A DNA stretch of 43,717 nucleotides. It comes from Campylobacteraceae bacterium (GTDB lineage: Bacteria > Campylobacterota > Campylobacteria > Campylobacterales > Sulfurovaceae). A program made the translations under genes and the position numbers. The notes beneath the pieces are model-generated. The model saw only the letters and a program-made list of their open reading frames with translations. It was not told the DNA's origin and did not search any database. The DNA lies in the NCBI GenBank assembly GCA_027068975.1, contig JALXFN010000120.1, positions 647-44,363 on the forward strand. Reading direction: 5' to 3'. How positions within the stretch are numbered: the first letter of the stretch is position 1; every line of letters begins with the position of its first letter. Of this stretch, positions 3-9,255 are shown one piece after another.

Positions 3-737
3 CAAAAAAATTCTAAAATTTGTAGTGTTTTTCAACCATTAGATAAAGGAACAACTTTTAGAGGAAAAATAAGGTTTCATAATCTTAAAAGAGCAGAGTT
101 AGGTCTTTTACTTGCATCATTAAATTTTATAAATCAAAATGAAGAAGAGAAGTATTTTCATAAGATAGGAATGGCTAGAGCTTATGGTTTTGGAACTGTA
201 TCTATAAAGATAACTTCTTTGAAAACAAGAGAAAATCAAACTGTAGATACCTATATAGATGAATTTAAAAACTTGTTAAACAAAGAGCTAGATATTGATT
301 TATTAAAACAACCTAGAGTTGAATCCTTGTTAAAACTCTCTTCTTATACTTTTAAGGATAGTGAGTTAAGAATTATGGACTTAAAAGAGTTTGTAAAAGC
401 TAAAAAACCTAATAATAAATTTTGCTTAATAGATGTTACTGATGATGAGTTTGAGAAAACTCCAAATAGCATCTCAAGAAATAAAATGAAACAAGCCATA
501 AAACAATATTGGGATAAAAATTTTAATATCTTTTATCACCCTAATCAGATTAAAGAGTTTTTTTCAGAAAATGGTTTTGAAACTACACCAGAAGAACAGA
601 GGAATGTATATATACATAATAAGGAAGATAAAAAATTTGTTAAATTATTACAACTAATTTATTTGTTTAATGAAAAAAAACTAGATACTGAGAAATCTAA
701 AGTACTGTATGAATATTTAACTAGAGAAGATAGGTAA
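3..737 (+). CDS. Type III CRISPR RAMP protein (Cas7-like, TIGR03986 type), 5'-truncated by window edge
   Basis: The reading frame is open from base 3, before the first in-window ATG at 171, so this is the C-terminal part of a longer gene. The fragment reads QPLDKGTTFRGKIRFHNL, then a KIGMARAYGFGTV segment. This is the typical C-terminal part of RAMP (Cas7/Csm3-like) proteins, where a conserved hydrophobic core precedes a G-x-G-x-V glycine loop. Such subunits form the crRNA-binding backbone of type III effector complexes. The roughly 190 residues after the glycine loop are Lys-rich and I do not recognise them. The stop is 1 nt before the next gene, so the two are surely co-transcribed. Assignment to the III-D-like TIGR03986 family is from memory of that family, not a search. 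Cas10 and the other subunits should lie left of the window. Confidence 0.72.
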   Translation, partial: QKNSKICSVFQPLDKGTTFRGKIRFHNLKRAELGLLLASLNFINQNEEEKYFHKIGMARAYGFGTVSIKITSLKTRENQTVDTYIDEFKNLLNKELDIDLLKQPRVESLLKLSSYTFKDSELRIMDLKEFVKAKKPNNKFCLIDVTDDEFEKTPNSISRNKMKQAIKQYWDKNFNIFYHPNQIKEFFSENGFETTPEEQRNVYIHNKEDKKFVKLLQLIYLFNEKKLDTEKSKVLYEYLTREDR

Positions 738-738
738 A

Positions 739-1416
739 ATGAAAATAAAAAAAGACCTCTTAGGAGCCATAGGACTTAATGAACATGTACCATTACGGTC
801 ACTGTTTATTGTAGTTATCTTTTTGGCTTCTATTGGAATATTTGCCGATAGCATTGTTGATATTATTGAACAGCAGAGCTTTACCAAGCTTTTTATAGCC
901 TTTGGAATGTTTCTGCTGGTCTATATGTCGTACCGATACTTAGGTGAGCAGGAGTTGAAGATAGTTAAAGAACTAGCTTTAGGTAAAGAGGTGATGATAC
1001 TGGTAACCCCTTCTAATGTAAACCATTTAAAAAAGATAGTTCGTGGGCATAATTTGCATACGATTTATATTTTAAAAGAGAAAGGGTTTCCTGTTGAAGA
1101 GAGTTACGCTGAGATAAAAGAGTTTTTAAAAAGAGAGAATATAAAGCTTAAAGAGTATGTTTTAAAAAGCTTAGAGAACCCAAATGAACTACAAGAGAAC
1201 TTTAGTGCCATAGTAGAGGAGGTTAATGAAAAGAAGCATCTGTCTTTAAATATCTCTACAGGTAAAGCCTCGACCTCTATTATACTTTTTGAACTGGCAA
1301 AGTTTCATGGCATTATGGTTGAGTATCTCTCTTCTGCTTACGATAATGAAAACCACCCCATAGAGGGAACAGAACAGAACTATAACATAGACTTTTATAA
1401 GGAGTTTGCGAGATGA
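739..1416 (+). CDS. Membrane-anchored CARF-like protein (Cam1-like candidate CRISPR effector)
   Basis: This 225-residue protein has two hydrophobic helices near the N terminus (about residues 21-40 and 49-66), followed by a soluble domain. The soluble part opens with a strand VMILVTPSN (85-93) and contains LNISTGKAS (170-178). That arrangement, a first beta strand and later an N-x-[ST]-[GT]-G-K-like loop before a helix, is characteristic of CARF domains, which bind cyclic oligoadenylate. CARF proteins with N-terminal membrane helices (Cam1 family) are type III effectors that perturb the membrane; Cam1 has one membrane helix, whereas two are predicted here. The gene sits 1 nt after the RAMP gene, and its stop overlaps the start of the CARF-HEPN gene (ATGA). 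The ATG has a weak AGG ribosome site. Function is inferred; the domain call needs profile or structure confirmation. Confidence 0.65.
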   Translation: MKIKKDLLGAIGLNEHVPLRSLFIVVIFLASIGIFADSIVDIIEQQSFTKLFIAFGMFLLVYMSYRYLGEQELKIVKELALGKEVMILVTPSNVNHLKKIVRGHNLHTIYILKEKGFPVEESYAEIKEFLKRENIKLKEYVLKSLENPNELQENFSAIVEEVNEKKHLSLNISTGKASTSIILFELAKFHGIMVEYLSSAYDNENHPIEGTEQNYNIDFYKEFAR

Positions 1417-2603
1417 TAATAACAATATTAGGAACATCAGGAGCAGGTTTTAATCATAAAGATTGTACACCTAGAAAAGATGAAGAGGGAAATATACTTT
1501 TTCACGATGCAGAGTATAACAGTGATATTTTTAACATAGAAAGAAAGCGTTATAAAAATTCAACCCATTTTTTACTTGAAAATTTTGATGATGAGTTTGT
1601 TTTTATTGGTACAGTTTGTGCTATCTCTTTTCAAAAGACTATTTTAGCAGAGAGTTTAAAAGGTAAAAATGTTCAGTTTAGAACTATAGGAGACAATAGT
1701 TTAGATGATATCTTTGAAACTATTTTAGAGTTAATTCAGCATAATGATAATATTGTTTTAGATATTACTCATGGTTTTCGGCACCAGCCTATTATGGCAA
1801 TTTTTGCTTCGACACTTTCACAGTTTTTAGAGAGACGAGATTTAAAAATAATTTTTGCAAAAGAGGTTGAGAGTCATGAAAAATATGAGTATATTTATCT
1901 GAATTCATATATTGAGATAACTCAAATATCACTTTTACTTACTGGTTTTATACGAACTTTAAACTTTATACCTGTAAAAAACATGAAACTTTTAAACAAT
2001 AAAGTGTTTGAAGACTTTTCAAAGTCTCTACTTTCTAATGACCTTAAAGGGGTAGAGAGAAATTACGGTTTATTAAAAGAAGAGTTGGTAAAGTTAAAGA
2101 GTAATGAAGACTTGAAGCATATTTCTAATCTTATTGATAAAGTAAAAAATGAGTTAATTCCTTTAGAGAGATTATCTGTTTTTGAACCTTATCAGAAGTA
2201 TATTGAACTTTCTAAAGTAACAGTTGAAAAAAACTATCTTATTATCTCTTTGGCATATATTTTTGAGTCATTGAGGGAGTATTGCTCTTATCGTTTTAAA
2301 GACATCTGTGCAACCTTTGAGTTTGAAAATGATTATGTGAAAAATGATAATGTAATGAAAACTATTGGAAATTTTAGAAAAGACAATTTGATTTTAAATA
2401 GATATCGTGGACTGTATCATGCCAATAAAGAGGAGTTTAAAAAGGTTAATAAGCTTTATAATAAACTTAGAAAACGTCGTAATGCTTTGGCTCATATTAA
2501 TACTACTAGTAATTTTGAAGATATAAAACAAGATTTGAGTAGAATTATTATTCAGGTGGAGACGCTTTATGGAGATAAGGTTTTGGAGAATATTAGACGA
2601 TAG
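1413..2603 (+). CDS. CARF-HEPN ribonuclease, Csx2/TM1812 family (DxTHG motif)
   Basis: The 396-residue protein begins with a CARF-type strand MIITILGTSG and carries the diagnostic D-I-T-H-G at 117-121 of Csx2/DxTHG proteins. The C-terminal helical part ends with RNALAH (R356 to H361), the R-x4-H active site of HEPN ribonucleases. Known relatives (Csm6/Csx1/Csx2) are type III accessory RNases switched on when cyclic oligoadenylate binds the CARF domain, cleaving RNA non-specifically. The start overlaps the stop of the membrane CARF gene by four bases, implying translational coupling of two signal-responsive effectors. Both the nucleotide-binding motif and the HEPN catalytic pair look intact. 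Which cyclic oligoadenylate it recognises cannot be told from sequence. Confidence 0.85.
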   Translation: MIITILGTSGAGFNHKDCTPRKDEEGNILFHDAEYNSDIFNIERKRYKNSTHFLLENFDDEFVFIGTVCAISFQKTILAESLKGKNVQFRTIGDNSLDDIFETILELIQHNDNIVLDITHGFRHQPIMAIFASTLSQFLERRDLKIIFAKEVESHEKYEYIYLNSYIEITQISLLLTGFIRTLNFIPVKNMKLLNNKVFEDFSKSLLSNDLKGVERNYGLLKEELVKLKSNEDLKHISNLIDKVKNELIPLERLSVFEPYQKYIELSKVTVEKNYLIISLAYIFESLREYCSYRFKDICATFEFENDYVKNDNVMKTIGNFRKDNLILNRYRGLYHANKEEFKKVNKLYNKLRKRRNALAHINTTSNFEDIKQDLSRIIIQVETLYGDKVLENIRR

Positions 2604-2643
2604 GTTTTTAAGTTATTGATATTTATTTATGCGAAGGAATAAA

Positions 2644-2922
2644 ATGAAACTCCTACTAACCTACGACATCAGCGACACAAAAAGTAGAACCAAAGTAGCC
2701 ACCCTTTTAGAGGGGTATGGCTACCGAGTAAACTTCTCTGTTTTTGAGCTAGATATTAAAAAGTATAAACTAGAAGAGCTTTTAAAAAGCATAGAGGAGT
2801 TTTGTGATAAAGAGGATTCTATTCGTGTTTATGCTTTTTCTGCTGATACTATTGAAAAGTCTTATGATTTGAACTCTAAACGACCTAAGCCATTTGAAAA
2901 AAAGAGTAGCTATGTTAACTAA
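2644..2922 (+). CDS. cas2: CRISPR-associated endoribonuclease/integration factor Cas2
   Basis: The protein is 92 residues when started at ATG 2644, the usual Cas2 size. It opens with MKLLLTYDIS, the ferredoxin-fold first strand whose Asp is conserved in Cas2, followed by the typical G-Y-R-V-N-F-S-V-F-E segment (here G-Y-G-Y-R-V-N-F-S-V-F-E). I chose ATG 2644 over the in-frame ATG at 2629 because AAGGA lies at a good distance before it and the upstream codons add non-family residues. Cas2 forms the adaptation complex with Cas1 that integrates spacers. The gene is 40 nt after the CARF-HEPN gene, and its end overlaps the RT-Cas1 start by 11 nt, so the two adaptation proteins are translationally coupled. 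Confidence 0.92.
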   Translation: MKLLLTYDISDTKSRTKVATLLEGYGYRVNFSVFELDIKKYKLEELLKSIEEFCDKEDSIRVYAFSADTIEKSYDLNSKRPKPFEKKSSYVN

Positions 2923-5116
2923 AAAGTTTGACAAACTATTTTCGACTAAAAACTTGTTAATGACTCTTGAACTCTATAAAAAGACAAAAGGTTACCATGA
3001 AGCTAAAGAGCTTATGGCTTCTGGAGAGTTTTTAAAAAGTCTGCAGCAAGGTTATGTTCCTGACCCTATGAGTGGCTTTGAGATGCCTAAAAATAATGGA
3101 GAGATGCGTAAACTAGCTCAAGCATCTATTACGAGTAAAGTTGTTCAAAAAATTATTGCTGAGGCGTTGCTTGATAGTGTAAAATTGAATGATAAATCTT
3201 ATGCCTTTCGTAAAGGGAAAGGGGTGCTTAAAGCTGTCAACAGAACAAAAGATTTTTTAAAACGCTATTCATATATTGCTAAAGCTGATGTAGATGATTT
3301 TTTTGACTCTATTAACCAAAAGAAGCTGTTGATTATTTTACAAAAAGTCATAGAAGATAAAAAGATAATTATGCTTATTTCTCTCTTTTTAAAAAATGGA
3401 ATGATGAAGCAGAATGAATGGATAGACAAAAGCCAAGGAGTCTACCAAGGTGATGTGCTTTCACCTGTACTCTCTAACTTGTATCTGCATAGTTTTGATG
3501 AAGCTTTAGAGTCAAAAGGGATAGACTTTGTACGGTTTGCTGATGATATGCTCTTTTTTGCAAAGAGTGAGAAAGAGGCAAAAAAGAACTTAGCCATAGC
3601 TACAGCGTACCTAAAAGCTCTTGACTTAAATTTTGGAGAAGACAAATCTTACATAGCTTCGGTACATGATGGTTTTGAGTTTTTGGGTCTGCGTTTTAAA
3701 AGTAAAACCATTCAGATGGATAATGAACGGTTTCAAAAAAAGCTCTCGACCATATCTAAAAAAACAAAGAAAAAAGACCTTTATAAATCCATAACTTTTT
3801 TAAATGAGTACTTAGTAGGTATTCGTAACTACTACTTTAAAGTTCTAAGTGACAAACATCAACTCATACTTATAGCTGAACATATCGATGAGATTTTAGT
3901 TAAAAAAATTGCTTTAGCGAAGAAGAGTAAAGTCATCAACAAAAAATCGAAGTTTATTCAGATATTGGTAGAGTTGGAAGATTTGGAACACAACACAAAA
4001 GAGGAGAAACTGCGTCATGCTCACAATTTGGTAGCACGTGCTTATGAGGCATTGACTTTAGAAAAACCACTAGAGAATGCCGAAAAGAAGATGGCAAAAA
4101 AGAAGAGTAGTTTTTTACAAGAGCAGATAAGGAGTTCAGAGATTATCTTAAACCGTTTTGGGCTTTATATTAGTATGAGCAAGGGTAAGATAGTGGTTAA
4201 AGAGTATGGTAAGGTTATTCAGACTAGCCCTGTAAATTGGGTGACACGGATTATTGTCATGACCAAAGGTGTCTCTATATCTTCCAATCTTATTTTGGAG
4301 TGTTCTAAACGTAAAATAGATATAGATTTTATAGAAAAAAGCAAACCCTACGCTCAAATAACCTACTATGAAAATGTCTCTAATGAGTTGCATTTGAAAC
4401 AGTTAGATTTGAAAAACTCTAAAAAAGGTTTTAAAACAGCTCTTGCCATTATAAAAGCTAAGATGAAAAATCAGATAAATCTTCTGAAGTACAACAGTAG
4501 ATATAGAGAAACAGCTGATAAAAAAGAGTTTGAACGGTTAGATAAAATCATAGAACAGATGGAAAGCATAGCAAAGAGTGCAACCAAAGCGAAAGATGTT
4601 CCTGCTCTTATGGGTTATGAGGGTAGTCTTTCTGTTTTGTATTGGAAAGCATTTGGAATTCTTATAGATGAAAAAGATTTTAAAAGAGAGACTCAAAATG
4701 CTCCTGATGCGATTAATCAAGCGTTAAATTATGGTTATGCTTTTTTGTATCACAGACTTCAATCGGCACTACTTAAAACTGGTGTTAACATCTACCACTC
4801 TTTTTTACATACTGCTCAAGCAAACAAACCAACTCTAGTCTTTGATATGATAGAACCTTTTCGTCAACCTGTTGTAGACAGAGAGATAATCTCTATTTTA
4901 AATCGAGGAACAAAGATTAGCTCAAAGAAAGGACGTTTGACAAAAAAGAGTATAAAAGTCATTACTGAAAATGTACAAGAGAGATTAGCTACTCCTACTA
5001 AGTGGAGAAAAGGGAAGTATAAAATAGTGACTATCATAGATGAACAGGCGTTAGAGATGGCTCATGTAATTAAAGGTATAAAGTCCAATTTTAAGGGCTT
5101 TGTAGGAAAATATTAA
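2912..5116 (+). CDS. cas1: Reverse transcriptase-Cas1 fusion protein
   Basis: A 734-residue fusion. The N-terminal half is a group II intron-like reverse transcriptase: ADVDDFFDSI (about 125-134) is the first catalytic Asp region, VYQGDVLSP (177-185) the motif 4 region and RFADD (208-212) the catalytic box. A maturase-like helical linker follows (about 280-400). From about 410 to the end is Cas1, with the N-terminal beta domain and the catalytic set E570 (GYEGS), H633 (SFLHT) and D645/E648 (VFDMIEPFR). All catalytic residues look intact. I prefer ATG 2912, with a GAG upstream, over TTG 2894 six codons earlier. No Cas6 domain is fused. Characterised RT-Cas1/Cas2 complexes can acquire spacers from RNA; that activity here is inference. 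Confidence 0.95.
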   Translation: MLTKKFDKLFSTKNLLMTLELYKKTKGYHEAKELMASGEFLKSLQQGYVPDPMSGFEMPKNNGEMRKLAQASITSKVVQKIIAEALLDSVKLNDKSYAFRKGKGVLKAVNRTKDFLKRYSYIAKADVDDFFDSINQKKLLIILQKVIEDKKIIMLISLFLKNGMMKQNEWIDKSQGVYQGDVLSPVLSNLYLHSFDEALESKGIDFVRFADDMLFFAKSEKEAKKNLAIATAYLKALDLNFGEDKSYIASVHDGFEFLGLRFKSKTIQMDNERFQKKLSTISKKTKKKDLYKSITFLNEYLVGIRNYYFKVLSDKHQLILIAEHIDEILVKKIALAKKSKVINKKSKFIQILVELEDLEHNTKEEKLRHAHNLVARAYEALTLEKPLENAEKKMAKKKSSFLQEQIRSSEIILNRFGLYISMSKGKIVVKEYGKVIQTSPVNWVTRIIVMTKGVSISSNLILECSKRKIDIDFIEKSKPYAQITYYENVSNELHLKQLDLKNSKKGFKTALAIIKAKMKNQINLLKYNSRYRETADKKEFERLDKIIEQMESIAKSATKAKDVPALMGYEGSLSVLYWKAFGILIDEKDFKRETQNAPDAINQALNYGYAFLYHRLQSALLKTGVNIYHSFLHTAQANKPTLVFDMIEPFRQPVVDREIISILNRGTKISSKKGRLTKKSIKVITENVQERLATPTKWRKGKYKIVTIIDEQALEMAHVIKGIKSNFKGFVGKY

Positions 5117-5124
5117 ACCATTTT

Positions 5125-5471
5125 AGTTTGCGAACTTTTTAGCTAAGTTTAGATTAAGCTAAAACTCATGGAAAGTCCGATATTTCGGACTCTCCTATTT
5201 TTTTACCCCTATTACAAAAAGTTCGCAAACCTCAATTTTTTTCAGAAATAAAATCAGTTTGCGAACTTTTATTTTCGTTTAAGTTTCAAATGCCTATTTT
5301 ATGGGCTTTAAAAAAGTGCAAAAATGCTAAAAGTTCGTAAACTCCTAGTTTTCACTACAACACAAAAGAGTTTGCGAACTTTTTTTGATGGCTAAAGCCC
5401 TAAAGTTAGGCACTTTAAGAAAAAAACAAGCCAAGTTGGTGTATCATAAACCTTGAGTTTGCGAACTTTTT
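5125..5471. repeat. Six copies of AGTTTGCGAACTTTT in the CRISPR leader (four direct, two inverted)
   Basis: Direct copies start at 5125, 5256, 5369 and 5456. Inverted copies (AAAAAGTTCGCAAAC and AAAAGTTCGTAAACT) are at 5216-5230 and 5329-5343. The inverted-direct pairs 5216/5256 and 5329/5369 have the same internal 40-nt offset and are 113 nt apart, so they look like a duplicated long stem-loop with 14-16 bp arms. The core GTTTGCGAAC is itself nearly palindromic. Possible roles are protein binding in the leader, RNA structure, or a small mobile repeat. None is established. Confidence 0.85.
5170..5204 (+). terminator. Rho-independent terminator of the cas operon
   Basis: GGAAAGTCCGA (5170-5180) pairs with TCGGACTCTCC (5185-5195) around a TATT loop, with one mismatch in 11 pairs, followed by a T run (5198-5204). 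It lies 53 nt after the RT-Cas1 stop and would separate cas mRNA from the pre-crRNA transcript. Confidence 0.75.
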
Positions 5472-5548
5472 CGTAAAGTTCCATAAATTGGTACTGTTAA
5501 GTGGTTTGAAAGTATGAGATACTTTAGATGTTTCCCACAATATAAGCT

Positions 5549-7134
5549 ATGACCCGACTGTAGAGATACGATAGGGGATTGAAACACCGTGCGCAATTTT
5601 TTCCTGTCTCAGTGTCATTTATGACCCGACTGTAGAGATACGATAGGGGATTGAAACCTACCAACACAGAACCAGAATCACCAGGCTCTGTAATGACCCG
5701 ACTGTAGAGATACGATAGGGGATTGAAACAAAGACACCAATAAAGGCGCCGATGCAGAAGAAAACTATGACCCGACTGTAGAGATACGATAGGGGATTGA
5801 AACATAATTTTCTCAGTGCATTCATCACTATTAGTTGTCATTATGACCCGACTGTAGAGATACGATAGGGGATTGAAACGTTTTTTCATAACAGGAAAGA
5901 ATCCCTTATGTTTTGGGTAATGACCCGACTGTAGAGATACGATAGGGGATTGAAACAGGCTCTAGAGAGCTCCAATTTCTTACAAATAATTCATGACCCG
6001 ACTGTAGAGATACGATAGGGGATTGAAACAATTCATTTTTTCTCCTTTTTTATTTTTTTTATAAATCATGACCCGACTGTAGAGATACGATAGGGGATTG
6101 AAACACCTGTGGGTTTGTTTTTTAATCAAGTTTTTCAATGACCCGACTGTAGAGATACGATAGGGGATTGAAACAAACACAAATTTATTATTTTCAAGAT
6201 AATTACTATATGACCCGACTGTAGAGATACGATAGGGGATTGAAACAGAACATACCAATAACTTCCAAAAAAATTCTTACTTCATGACCCGACTGTAGAG
6301 ATACGATAGGGGATTGAAACACTATGGCTGCACTTCCAGCCGATACCTCTTTCATTTATGACCCGACTGTAGAGATACGATAGGGGATTGAAACGCTACA
6401 ACTGCTAAAAATAATATTTTTTTCATTTATGACCCGACTGTAGAGATACGATAGGGGATTGAAACATTATAATATTCTCCTATTCCAAACTCTGTTTGCT
6501 GGCAATGACCCGACTGTAGAGATACGATAGGGGATTGAAACGCCAAACCCAATTGCGAAGTCACCTGTAAAAGTCTGACTATGACCCGACTGTAGAGATA
6601 CGATAGGGGATTGAAACTTTCGGTTGATTTCATAGCTAATTCAATGACTCTATCCTCATGACCCGACTGTAGAGATACGATAGGGGATTGAAACATATTC
6701 TGTAATATCGGCCGAAGCCGGATTTGCTGCCAAATGACCCGACTGTAGAGATACGATAGGGGATTGAAACTGTTTTTTCTCCTCCTTTCCGACCTTCTAG
6801 ATATATGACCCGACTGTAGAGATACGATAGGGGATTGAAACTTAAACAAATGAGGTTTAAGGTACCCATCCCTGTATGACCCGACTGTAGAGATACGATA
6901 GGGGATTGAAACGCTACTGTTAAAATACATTTGATGGTTGGGAAACCATCATATGACCCGACTGTAGAGATACGATAGGGGATTGAAACTTCTGGATTAA
7001 TGAAAGTTTTAAAAACTTTCACACTGCATGACCCGACTGTAGAGATACGATAGGGGATTGAAACATCACAAGACCTTCACCAAGGTTCACTAGCGAACCC
7101 AACAAATGACCCGACTGTAGAGATACGATAGGGG
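5549..7134 (+). CRISPR. CRISPR array: 22 repeats of 37 nt, 21 spacers of 33-41 nt
   Basis: The repeat begins ATGACCCGACTG and ends GGGGATTGAAAC. Copies start at 5549, 5621, 5693, 5767, 5843, 5920, 5993, 6068, 6138, 6210, 6284, 6358, 6429, 6505, 6581, 6658, 6734, 6805, 6876, 6953, 7028 and 7106. The first 21 appear identical. The last keeps 29 nt and then diverges from GATTGAAAC. ATTGAAAC is the classic 8-nt type III crRNA 5' handle, so transcription is rightward and the leader is on the left. Variable spacer lengths centred near 37 are usual for type III. Palindromy in the repeat is weak (CCC...GGGG, GTA-gaga-TAC). Several spacers read, on the opposite strand, as gene starts (see findings). 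No spacer was seen to match the rest of the window by eye. Confidence 0.98.
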
Positions 7135-7142
7135 GGGTTATT
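7106..7142 (+). repeat. Degenerate terminal CRISPR repeat
   Basis: The first 29 nt match the consensus through AGGGG, then GGTTATTA replaces GATTGAAAC. Loss of the 3' part at the leader-distal end is typical of the oldest repeat and confirms array polarity. A crRNA handle would not form here. Confidence 0.85.
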
Positions 7143-7177: not shown

Positions 7178-7318
7178 GGGCAGACACGGAGGTCGCCCCT
7201 ACATGGTCGCTAAGATTAAAGTAACATGGTTTTGTGAAGGGGTTTTTTATTTACAATGGAAAGAATTAAATGCTCTTTCAACCCAAACGGCACGTAGGGG
7301 CGACCTCCGTGTCTGCCC
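7178..7318. repeat. REP-like inverted pair (REPIN-like element 1)
   Basis: The 25-nt sequence at 7178-7202 (GGGCAGACACGG through CGCCCCTAC) is the exact reverse complement of 7294-7318 (GTAGGGGCGACC through GTCTGCCC). Each copy has a GTAG head and an imperfect internal palindrome (GGGC-GAC...GTC-GCCC), the layout of REP sequences mobilised by RAYT transposases. The 91 nt between the arms has no supported gene. No transposase is in the window. Confidence 0.8.
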
Positions 7319-7383
7319 AATGCCCAAAATGCCAATAAATTTCAAATGTTTTTGAATGGGTAATTTTTTAATATTTATATATA

Positions 7384-7452
7384 CGTAGGGTCGATTTATC
7401 GACCATAGAATAAGCATTCATTTAAATCATTGGTCGGTAAACCGACCCTACG
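7384..7452. repeat. REP-like inverted pair (REPIN-like element 2)
   Basis: GTAGGGTCGATTTATCGACC (from 7385) and, inverted, GGTCGGTAAACCGACCCTAC (7432-7451) form a pair matching at 20 of 22 positions including the flanks. Each half is itself a hairpin (GGTCGAT/ATCGACC and GGTCGGT/ACCGACC), and the differences between halves preserve pairing within each hairpin. This suggests selection on structure or independent replication as REP units. Confidence 0.8.
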
Positions 7453-7493
7453 CGAAAAGTTTTATAGAGACAAAACTTGTCATATCTTTACGT

Positions 7494-7912: not shown

Positions 7913-8299
7913 ATGAAAAAAATTTGTCTACTCTTCTCTCATAATCTTACAGCTGAACAGAAGTTTGATATAGAGAATAAGTTAGAGGTAAAAGAGGTAT
8001 ATAGTCTACCTGAGAAACTTCAAGATTTATGGTCGCAAGTACCAACCGATAGAGATTTGAAGTTTGGTAAATATTTAGCAGAAATAGAACTATTTTTAAA
8101 CACAACACTTAGCAAAGGAGACTATGTTTTAATACAAGGAGACTTTGGTGCTAGTTACCATATGATTAACTTCTGTAAAGAGCATGGGTTTGTACCTGTT
8201 TACTCTGTCAACAGTCGTCTATCACGTGAGGTTATAGAGAATGGAATAGTTAAAAAGTATTCAGAGTTCAAGCATGAATGTTTTAGGGAGTATGAGTAA
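7913..8299 (+). CDS. csx20: Csx20-like CRISPR accessory protein (putative ring nuclease)
   Basis: 128 residues. It starts KKICLLFSHNLTAEQ, has LPEKLQDLWSQVP near 33-45, a central GDYVLIQGDFGASY (about 69-82), and then FVPVYSVNSR. This combination resembles the Csx20 family as I remember it. Csx20 is grouped with small CARF-related proteins predicted to cleave cyclic oligoadenylate and so switch off type III signalling. AAGGA precedes the ATG at good spacing. Its stop overlaps the start of the WYL regulator (TAATG). A ring nuclease fits well with the two CARF effectors on the other side of the array. Family assignment is from memory; enzymatic activity is inference. Confidence 0.65.
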   Translation: MKKICLLFSHNLTAEQKFDIENKLEVKEVYSLPEKLQDLWSQVPTDRDLKFGKYLAEIELFLNTTLSKGDYVLIQGDFGASYHMINFCKEHGFVPVYSVNSRLSREVIENGIVKKYSEFKHECFREYE

Positions 8300-9255
8300 T
8301 GACAAAGCATGAAGCATTAAATATTTTAGGTAAGCGTCTTATGGCTGGTGAGAGAATTTCTAGTGCTAATACAGAGCTATTAGAACAAGAAGGTAAGCCT
8401 TGTTCTTCAAAAACACTTAAGCGTTATTTGCAGGAGTTGAGTGACAGATATGGACTAAGAGAGGTTAAAGAGGGTAGAACGGTATATTATAGTTTGGAGA
8501 GAGAGATTTCAAATATTGTACATGAGTATCTCTCTACTACAGAGGATATGTCGTGGCTTGTGCAGATGATTAACAGTTCAGACAAAACACTTTGGGCAAA
8601 GTTGGAGGAGGATACTAAAAAGAGATTAGAAAATATTTTATCTAGTGAGAAAGATATTTTTCTTTATCAAAACTCACCATTTGAGGTTTTTGAAGATGAT
8701 ACACATAAGCAGATTTTTAGGTCATTAAAATCTGCAGTAAAAAACAATGAGTACAGAGATATCGATTATGAATATAATAATACAACACTATTGGAAGAGT
8801 TGCAGTGTTTAAAACTTATATTTATGGAGAACAACTGGTATGTTGCTGTTGCTACCAAAGAGAAGAGGGTTCTTTTTTTACGTTTATCTTTTATTAAAAA
8901 GGTTACATATTCATCTAAAAGCACATATAAGGCATCTCAACTTAATAGATATATTGATTTTTTTAAAACATACCAAAATGCAATGACACGCTATGGAGTT
9001 GAGAAGCAAAAAGCCCATATTGTAGCAAGTTCAAAAGTAGCAAAATATTTTAAACCAAATATGAAAAAGTTTCTTTCCTCTCAAACATACATTAGAGAAA
9101 ATGAAGATGGCAGTGTAGAGTTTACACTTGAGTATACACAACCTTTAGAAATTTTACCTCTCATTAAAAAATGGATGCCTGATTTAAAAATAGTCTCTCC
9201 AAAATCTTTAGACGATACATTACGAGCGGACCTACAGAGCTATTTAGATAACTAA
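8299..9255 (+). CDS. WYL-domain transcriptional regulator
   Basis: 318 residues. The N-terminal region (about 1-70) reads as a winged helix-turn-helix (KTLKRYLQELSDRYGL). The middle holds the WYL domain core MENNWYVAVATKEKRVLFLR (about 175-194), and a C-terminal WCX-like extension follows (about 245-318). WYL proteins often sit in or beside CRISPR and other defence loci, where they sense nucleic acid or nucleotide ligands and regulate expression. The start overlaps the csx20 stop (TAATG), so they are translationally coupled, and a strong terminator follows. Target promoters are unknown; the cas operon, the leader or csx20 itself are the obvious candidates. Confidence 0.85.
   Translation: MTKHEALNILGKRLMAGERISSANTELLEQEGKPCSSKTLKRYLQELSDRYGLREVKEGRTVYYSLEREISNIVHEYLSTTEDMSWLVQMINSSDKTLWAKLEEDTKKRLENILSSEKDIFLYQNSPFEVFEDDTHKQIFRSLKSAVKNNEYRDIDYEYNNTTLLEELQCLKLIFMENNWYVAVATKEKRVLFLRLSFIKKVTYSSKSTYKASQLNRYIDFFKTYQNAMTRYGVEKQKAHIVASSKVAKYFKPNMKKFLSSQTYIRENEDGSVEFTLEYTQPLEILPLIKKWMPDLKIVSPKSLDDTLRADLQSYLDN

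Follow-up and report, generated by a model that had tools for sequence, protein, structure and literature searches.

An RT-Cas1 module in a Campylobacterota type III-D CRISPR locus and the six-site element of its leader

RT-Cas1 proteins underlie transcript-recording tools, few of them have been tested, and to our knowledge no tested member comes from Campylobacterota. The locus described here, from a Campylobacteraceae bacterium, encodes such a fusion and raises two questions: whether its reverse transcriptase (RT) domain allows spacers to be taken from RNA, and how the integrase locates its array. We consider moderately probable, as a whole, a model in which a type III-D adaptation module carries an RT that copies RNA and a leader that serves as its platform. 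In this model RT-Cas1 and Cas2 would together act as the integrase, placing spacers of ~37 nt where the leader meets the first repeat, and the RT domain would copy RNA protospacers, such that transcripts and DNA would both be recorded. The crRNAs, made with a separate Cas6, would guide a Cas10 complex, which in turn would signal to the CARF effectors.

The locus and its type III-D context

The window, which is the whole stretch of DNA analysed (43,717 nt; G000:C120:647-44363), belongs to a contig that starts within a TIGR03986 RAMP gene. The features of the locus, all on the plus strand, are as follows:

3..737, +, C-terminal part of the TIGR03986 RAMP (III-D Cas7), with its N-terminus on contig C10
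739..1416, +, CARF protein with transmembrane segments (PADLOC CARF models)
1413..2603, +, Csx1-type CARF-HEPN protein (PADLOC CARF_HEPN 1.5e-45, DxTHG motif)
2644..2922, +, cas2 (Pfam CRISPR_Cas2 8.4e-19, TIGR01573)
2912..5116, +, RT-Cas1 fusion of 734 aa without a Cas6 domain (RVT_1 9e-31, Cas_Cas1 2.5e-57)
5117..5548, +, leader with the six-site element, between RT-Cas1 and the first repeat
5549..7142, +, CRISPR array with 21 identical 37-nt repeats and 21 spacers (33-41 nt), and a degenerate terminal repeat at 7106-7142
7913..8299, +, csx20 (NF040559 3e-40)
8299..9255, +, WYL-domain protein, a candidate regulator (Pfam WCX 1e-7, PADLOC WYL 1e-16)

The end of contig C10 carries Cas6, Cas10d (464 aa, with GGDD retained and no HD domain seen), III-D Cas5 and Cas7, Csx19, and then the N-terminal half of the TIGR03986 RAMP. 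Because a relative, G024, has the complete order from Cas6 to the array on a single contig, the C10 and C120 ends very probably join as one type III-D locus. An earlier note on this DNA had called it a Campylobacterota-like type III locus. Homologues with 86-88% identity come from Campylobacteraceae MAGs, in agreement with the first term, while the second can be sharpened to III-D by the presence of Cas10d, III-D Cas5/Cas7 and Csx19 in the same locus, with the C10/C120 junction read from the G024 gene order. What the note overlooked was the CRISPR array and the patterned leader ahead of it.

Even with up to 3 mismatches allowed, the repeat has no copy outside this array in the genome. Just 3′ of the array lie two inverted-repeat elements, at 7179-7320 and 7385-7455 (GGGCAGACACGGAGGTCGCCCCTAC and CGTAGGGTCGATTTATCGACC types), which look like small mobile elements; a sequence resembling them also follows the array in L078. 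Elsewhere the genome encodes another RT frame, of group II-like type, and a further Cas1 that is divided between two frames (G000:C101:27503-28279 and 48311-49143).

The RT-Cas1 protein and the case for RNA-derived spacers

The RT-Cas1 gene starts at the ATG at 2912, from which its homologues align, while a longer TTG start at 2894 is a mechanical call. Translational coupling to cas2 had been claimed earlier; the two genes do overlap, by 11 nt, and coupling is plausible for that reason. With M1 at 2912, the RT (residues about 49-340) has its catalytic residues D126, QGDVLSP (179-185) and FADD (D211, D212), and the Cas1 domain, from about residue 411, has an active site of E570, H633, D645 and E648. 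The earlier note had thus described both catalytic sets correctly, with the right residue numbers for Cas1, and all of these residues are invariant across 28 Campylobacterota RT-Cas1 proteins. Between close relatives, pairwise dN/dS values are 0.04-0.09 for the RT domain and 0.06-0.13 for Cas1, such that constraint on the RT is no weaker than on Cas1; the RT domain is therefore maintained by strong purifying selection, as judged from these substitution rates.

An AlphaFold model of the protein (mean pLDDT 85; pTM 0.49, which leaves the domain placement uncertain) runs from ~45 helical N-terminal residues through the RT, thumb and a linker (residues 397-408) to Cas1. Its best structural match is the Cas6-RT-Cas1 complex 7kfu, and the matches also include RTs of group II introns as well as Cas1 proteins. 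Neither the model nor a profile search contains a Cas6 domain, and a separate cas6 lies among the effector genes, which bears out the earlier description of a two-domain form and places the protein outside the Cas6-RT-Cas1 group with its N-terminal Cas6 domain. The RT lies in a cas operon, joined to Cas1 rather than free-standing, with cas2 and a CRISPR array linked to it. As a member of the RT-Cas1 family, this compact two-domain enzyme is complete but unremarkable, and its architecture is already known.

Matches to RT-Cas1 below 1e-30 were found in 32 of 397 sampled Campylobacterota genomes, several of them to Cas1 only. In a Cas1-domain tree, all Campylobacterota RT-Cas1 proteins, this one included, fall in one clade (support 99/98), within which two Cas1 genes without an RT are also nested. 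By taxon and architecture the protein belongs to clade 2A (Toro et al. 2018, PMC6013744; Epsilonbacteraeota), an assignment that rests on those two characters; Caminibacter mediatlanticus TB-2 is an example of the clade. It shares with clade 2A the two-domain fusion without Cas6, the group II intron-like RT, the type III locus and the phylum, and a comparison by taxon and architecture found no clear protein difference. On two Arcobacter plasmids this module occurs beside III-B and III-A effectors, which agrees with the promiscuity already known for RT-Cas1 modules (PMC5513706). On one of them, pACLO (Arcobacter cloacae; L167 8944-11071), RT-Cas1 is in two annotated frames next to a III-A effector, and the plus-sites of the leader are intact.

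Does this enzyme acquire spacers from RNA? The earlier note had proposed that the locus may record transcripts. In favour are machinery that is complete and conserved, an RT under selection and the III-D precedents, which together make RNA acquisition the best bet and, by analogy, likely. The RT-Cas1 proteins of Fusicatenibacter saccharivorans and Vibrio vulnificus, from other phyla, likewise work with a III-D effector and are reported to take RNA spacers in vivo (PMC11014452); function was measured there, whereas here the likeness is one of architecture and known from the genes. The Cas6-RT-Cas1 enzymes of Marinomonas mediterranea and Thiomicrospira (PMC11014452, PMC8102632) share the RT and Cas1 folds and active sites, but carry an N-terminal Cas6 domain that this protein lacks. 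That difference counts against RNA acquisition, since RT activity of the Marinomonas enzyme requires its Cas6 domain (PMC11014452), and the same dependence would fit an enzyme that acquires from DNA only, with the RT as a passenger or in another role. Two relatives, G314 and G230 (L082 and L083), fit such a reading as well: their Cas1 is nested in the RT-Cas1 clade, the RT has been lost, Cas1 is retained, and they have long arrays of 33 and 54 spacers along with a partial site pattern. Against acquisition from DNA alone stand the invariance of the RT catalytic residues in all 28 proteins and an RT-domain dN/dS far below 1, and we regard it as unlikely.

The spacers themselves carry no signal of an RNA origin, and here the proposal of transcript recording found no help. 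A query of 50,697 phage records with 19 of the 21 spacers (all but 7 and 9) gave no match. Candidate matches in related genomes were rejected: they were repeats, stretches resembling ribosome-binding sites or, for spacer 12, a weak match of 91%. The pyrimidine fraction of the crRNA strand, expected to be high if crRNAs are antisense to mRNA, is 0.575 in RT arrays (366 spacers), 0.565 in RT-less type III arrays (27 spacers; not different from RT arrays) and 0.497 in type I arrays (76 spacers), while the value of 0.529 in RT-lost arrays (87 spacers) is suggestive only. Strand bias as proof of RNA origin was rejected: being common to RT-less type III arrays, it marks type III targeting of transcripts and does not prove RNA-derived acquisition. 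In Marinomonas, spacer acquisition occurs in either orientation (PMC11014452). Spacers in the window have longer perfect stems than genomic segments (p 0.005), with the same folding energy and mixed results in other arrays. The old spacers 18-20 (6842-7027) contain perfect 6-9 bp hairpins, weakly above genomic expectation and without support from folding energy.

Six sites in the leader

The leader contains six 14-nt copies of GTTTGCGAACTTTT, of which one carries a substitution, in the order +,-,+,-,+,+:

5126..5139, +, site 1, GTTTGCGAACTTTT
5217..5230, -, site 2
5257..5270, +, site 3
5329..5342, -, site 4, with one substitution
5370..5383, +, site 5
5457..5470, +, site 6, nearest the array

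In an unbiased motif search, most leaders of other RT-Cas1 loci had a motif particular to the locus in five to seven copies, compared with mostly 1-3 and occasionally 4 copies in shuffled-sequence controls. The same layout was found in 28 leaders of RT-Cas1 loci, drawn from many families and including two on Arcobacter plasmids, while the motif varies by lineage (GTTTGCGAACTTTT, GACTTACAAACTTTT, GATGTTAGAACTTTT, GATTCTCCAACTTTT, GATTTTCGAACTTTT and others; site types are also given as GTTTGCGAAC and GACTTACAAAC) around a mostly constant AACTTTT tail. Each locus has one motif: the sites share their sequence and change together. CC-N-GG palindromes between the sites were considered as a second motif and rejected as too variable.

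The spacing is constrained. Site 2 lies 47-49 bp from site 3, as does site 4 from site 5 (one outlier). The distance between sites 3 and 5 is 113-115 bp, or 102-103 bp in one lineage, and that between sites 5 and 6 is 87-89 or 96-99 bp. These values come from a final site table hand-picked from scored hits, where the plus-site spacing rests on strong matches and minus sites are weak in several loci and absent from some. The variable distances shift in steps of ~10-12 bp (clustering score 0.72 vs a null of 0.33 +/- 0.05; per-interval periods 10.0 to 12.1), which suggests helical phasing of the sites.

The inverted pairs could instead act in RNA, with site 2 pairing with site 3 and site 4 with site 5 within the leader transcript. 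Both sides of the pairs 5217/5257 and 5329/5370 are changed in G011 and G024, as pairing would predict. However, sites 1 and 6, which are single plus sites, vary in concert with the others; plus sites also stay closer to the locus consensus than minus sites do (0.89 vs 2.17 mismatches), and the pairing is broken in several loci, all of which make a role in RNA improbable.

Proposed roles of the element: docking platform or operator array

We favour the reading that the six-site element is a docking platform coupled to Cas1, and hold it tentatively in its full form: a dedicated landing platform for RT-Cas1/Cas2 or a partner, with a recognition sequence rewritten in several lineages as all sites and Cas1 changed together, giving each locus a private address. 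The six-site DNA would bind the RT-Cas1/Cas2 complex or a coupled partner and present the first repeat. Docking draws support from the 28 leaders and from the distribution of the element. The six-site pattern was not found in leaders of Cas1 genes outside the clade in the same phylum, which have 1-4 copies, residual CRISPR repeats aside. The exact site-pair pattern occurs in 15 of 397 genomes, compared with one hit for a reversed-pattern control; twelve of the 15 have RT-Cas1 or a Cas1 of this clade, and two others have RT-Cas1 fragments or III-D genes nearby. A viral contig bearing a site pair was set aside as an unrelated ~100 nt repeat. The two RT-less Cas1 genes within the clade still have three to four clear leader sites, and the element is also found at arrays in trans, away from cas genes (G021:C188, next to a 74-residue RT-Cas1 remnant, and G011:C139).

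A natural chimera bears on the coupling as well. Aligned to window positions 2600-5600, the G021 locus (L034) has cas2 and RT nearly identical to those of G011 (L033) up to a breakpoint near 4363, while the Cas1 C-terminus and leader come from another lineage, and the site type switched along with them. The switch fits Cas1-leader coupling, yet as a single event it is explicable by physical linkage.

The main rival is an operator role, in which a transcription factor, either the WYL protein or a host regulator, would bind the six sites to control leader and array transcription, with no relation to integration. Site 6 is closest to the array and in some relatives is followed by TATAAT, a WYL gene is present here and in the loci of G021, G024, G050 and Arcobacter cloacae, and binding of regulators to leaders has precedent, as with Csa3a (PMC9456107). 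The element nevertheless follows the Cas1 clade, the site type differs among loci within one genome (G021), and no WYL gene was found in the ~20 kb examined around each of three element carriers, G053, G009 and plasmid p82_LEO_62. The WYL protein as sole binder of the sites was rejected for its absence from such loci; operator function in general is a real possibility, though less likely than not.

The nearest parallel for docking is Sulfolobus islandicus, where a distal Csa3a motif and a proximal Cas1 motif occur in the leader, and the distal motifs help adaptation and are possible binding sites of a factor that meets Cas1 (PMC9456107). The present leader differs in having six sites over ~430 bp, with fixed spacing and a lineage-specific sequence that changes in concert. 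Literature searches found no comparable leader; one may be described in other papers, and the co-changing six-site element is apparently undescribed. A platform of 430 bp is no general requirement of RT-Cas1, since a leader of 20-49 bp suffices in vitro for integration by the enzymes of Marinomonas and Thiomicrospira (PMC11014452, PMC8102632). If confirmed, the element would show how a long leader with multiple sites lets an integrase locate its array, and matched enzyme-leader pairs, possibly without cross-reaction, could permit multi-channel recording. It also carries a warning that short-leader tests of these enzymes may fail.

Two further observations concern related arrays. The repeats in L033, L078 and L079 are variants (TGTAGAAATACG and TGCATTTTTGCG) that retain a short hairpin through a paired T-A to C-G change. 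At G011:C182 (L080, around 5650-5760), only two sites remain in the leader, apparently because sites 1 and 5 recombined with each other; the array that follows it is decayed, with a single spacer and a terminal repeat that has mutated.
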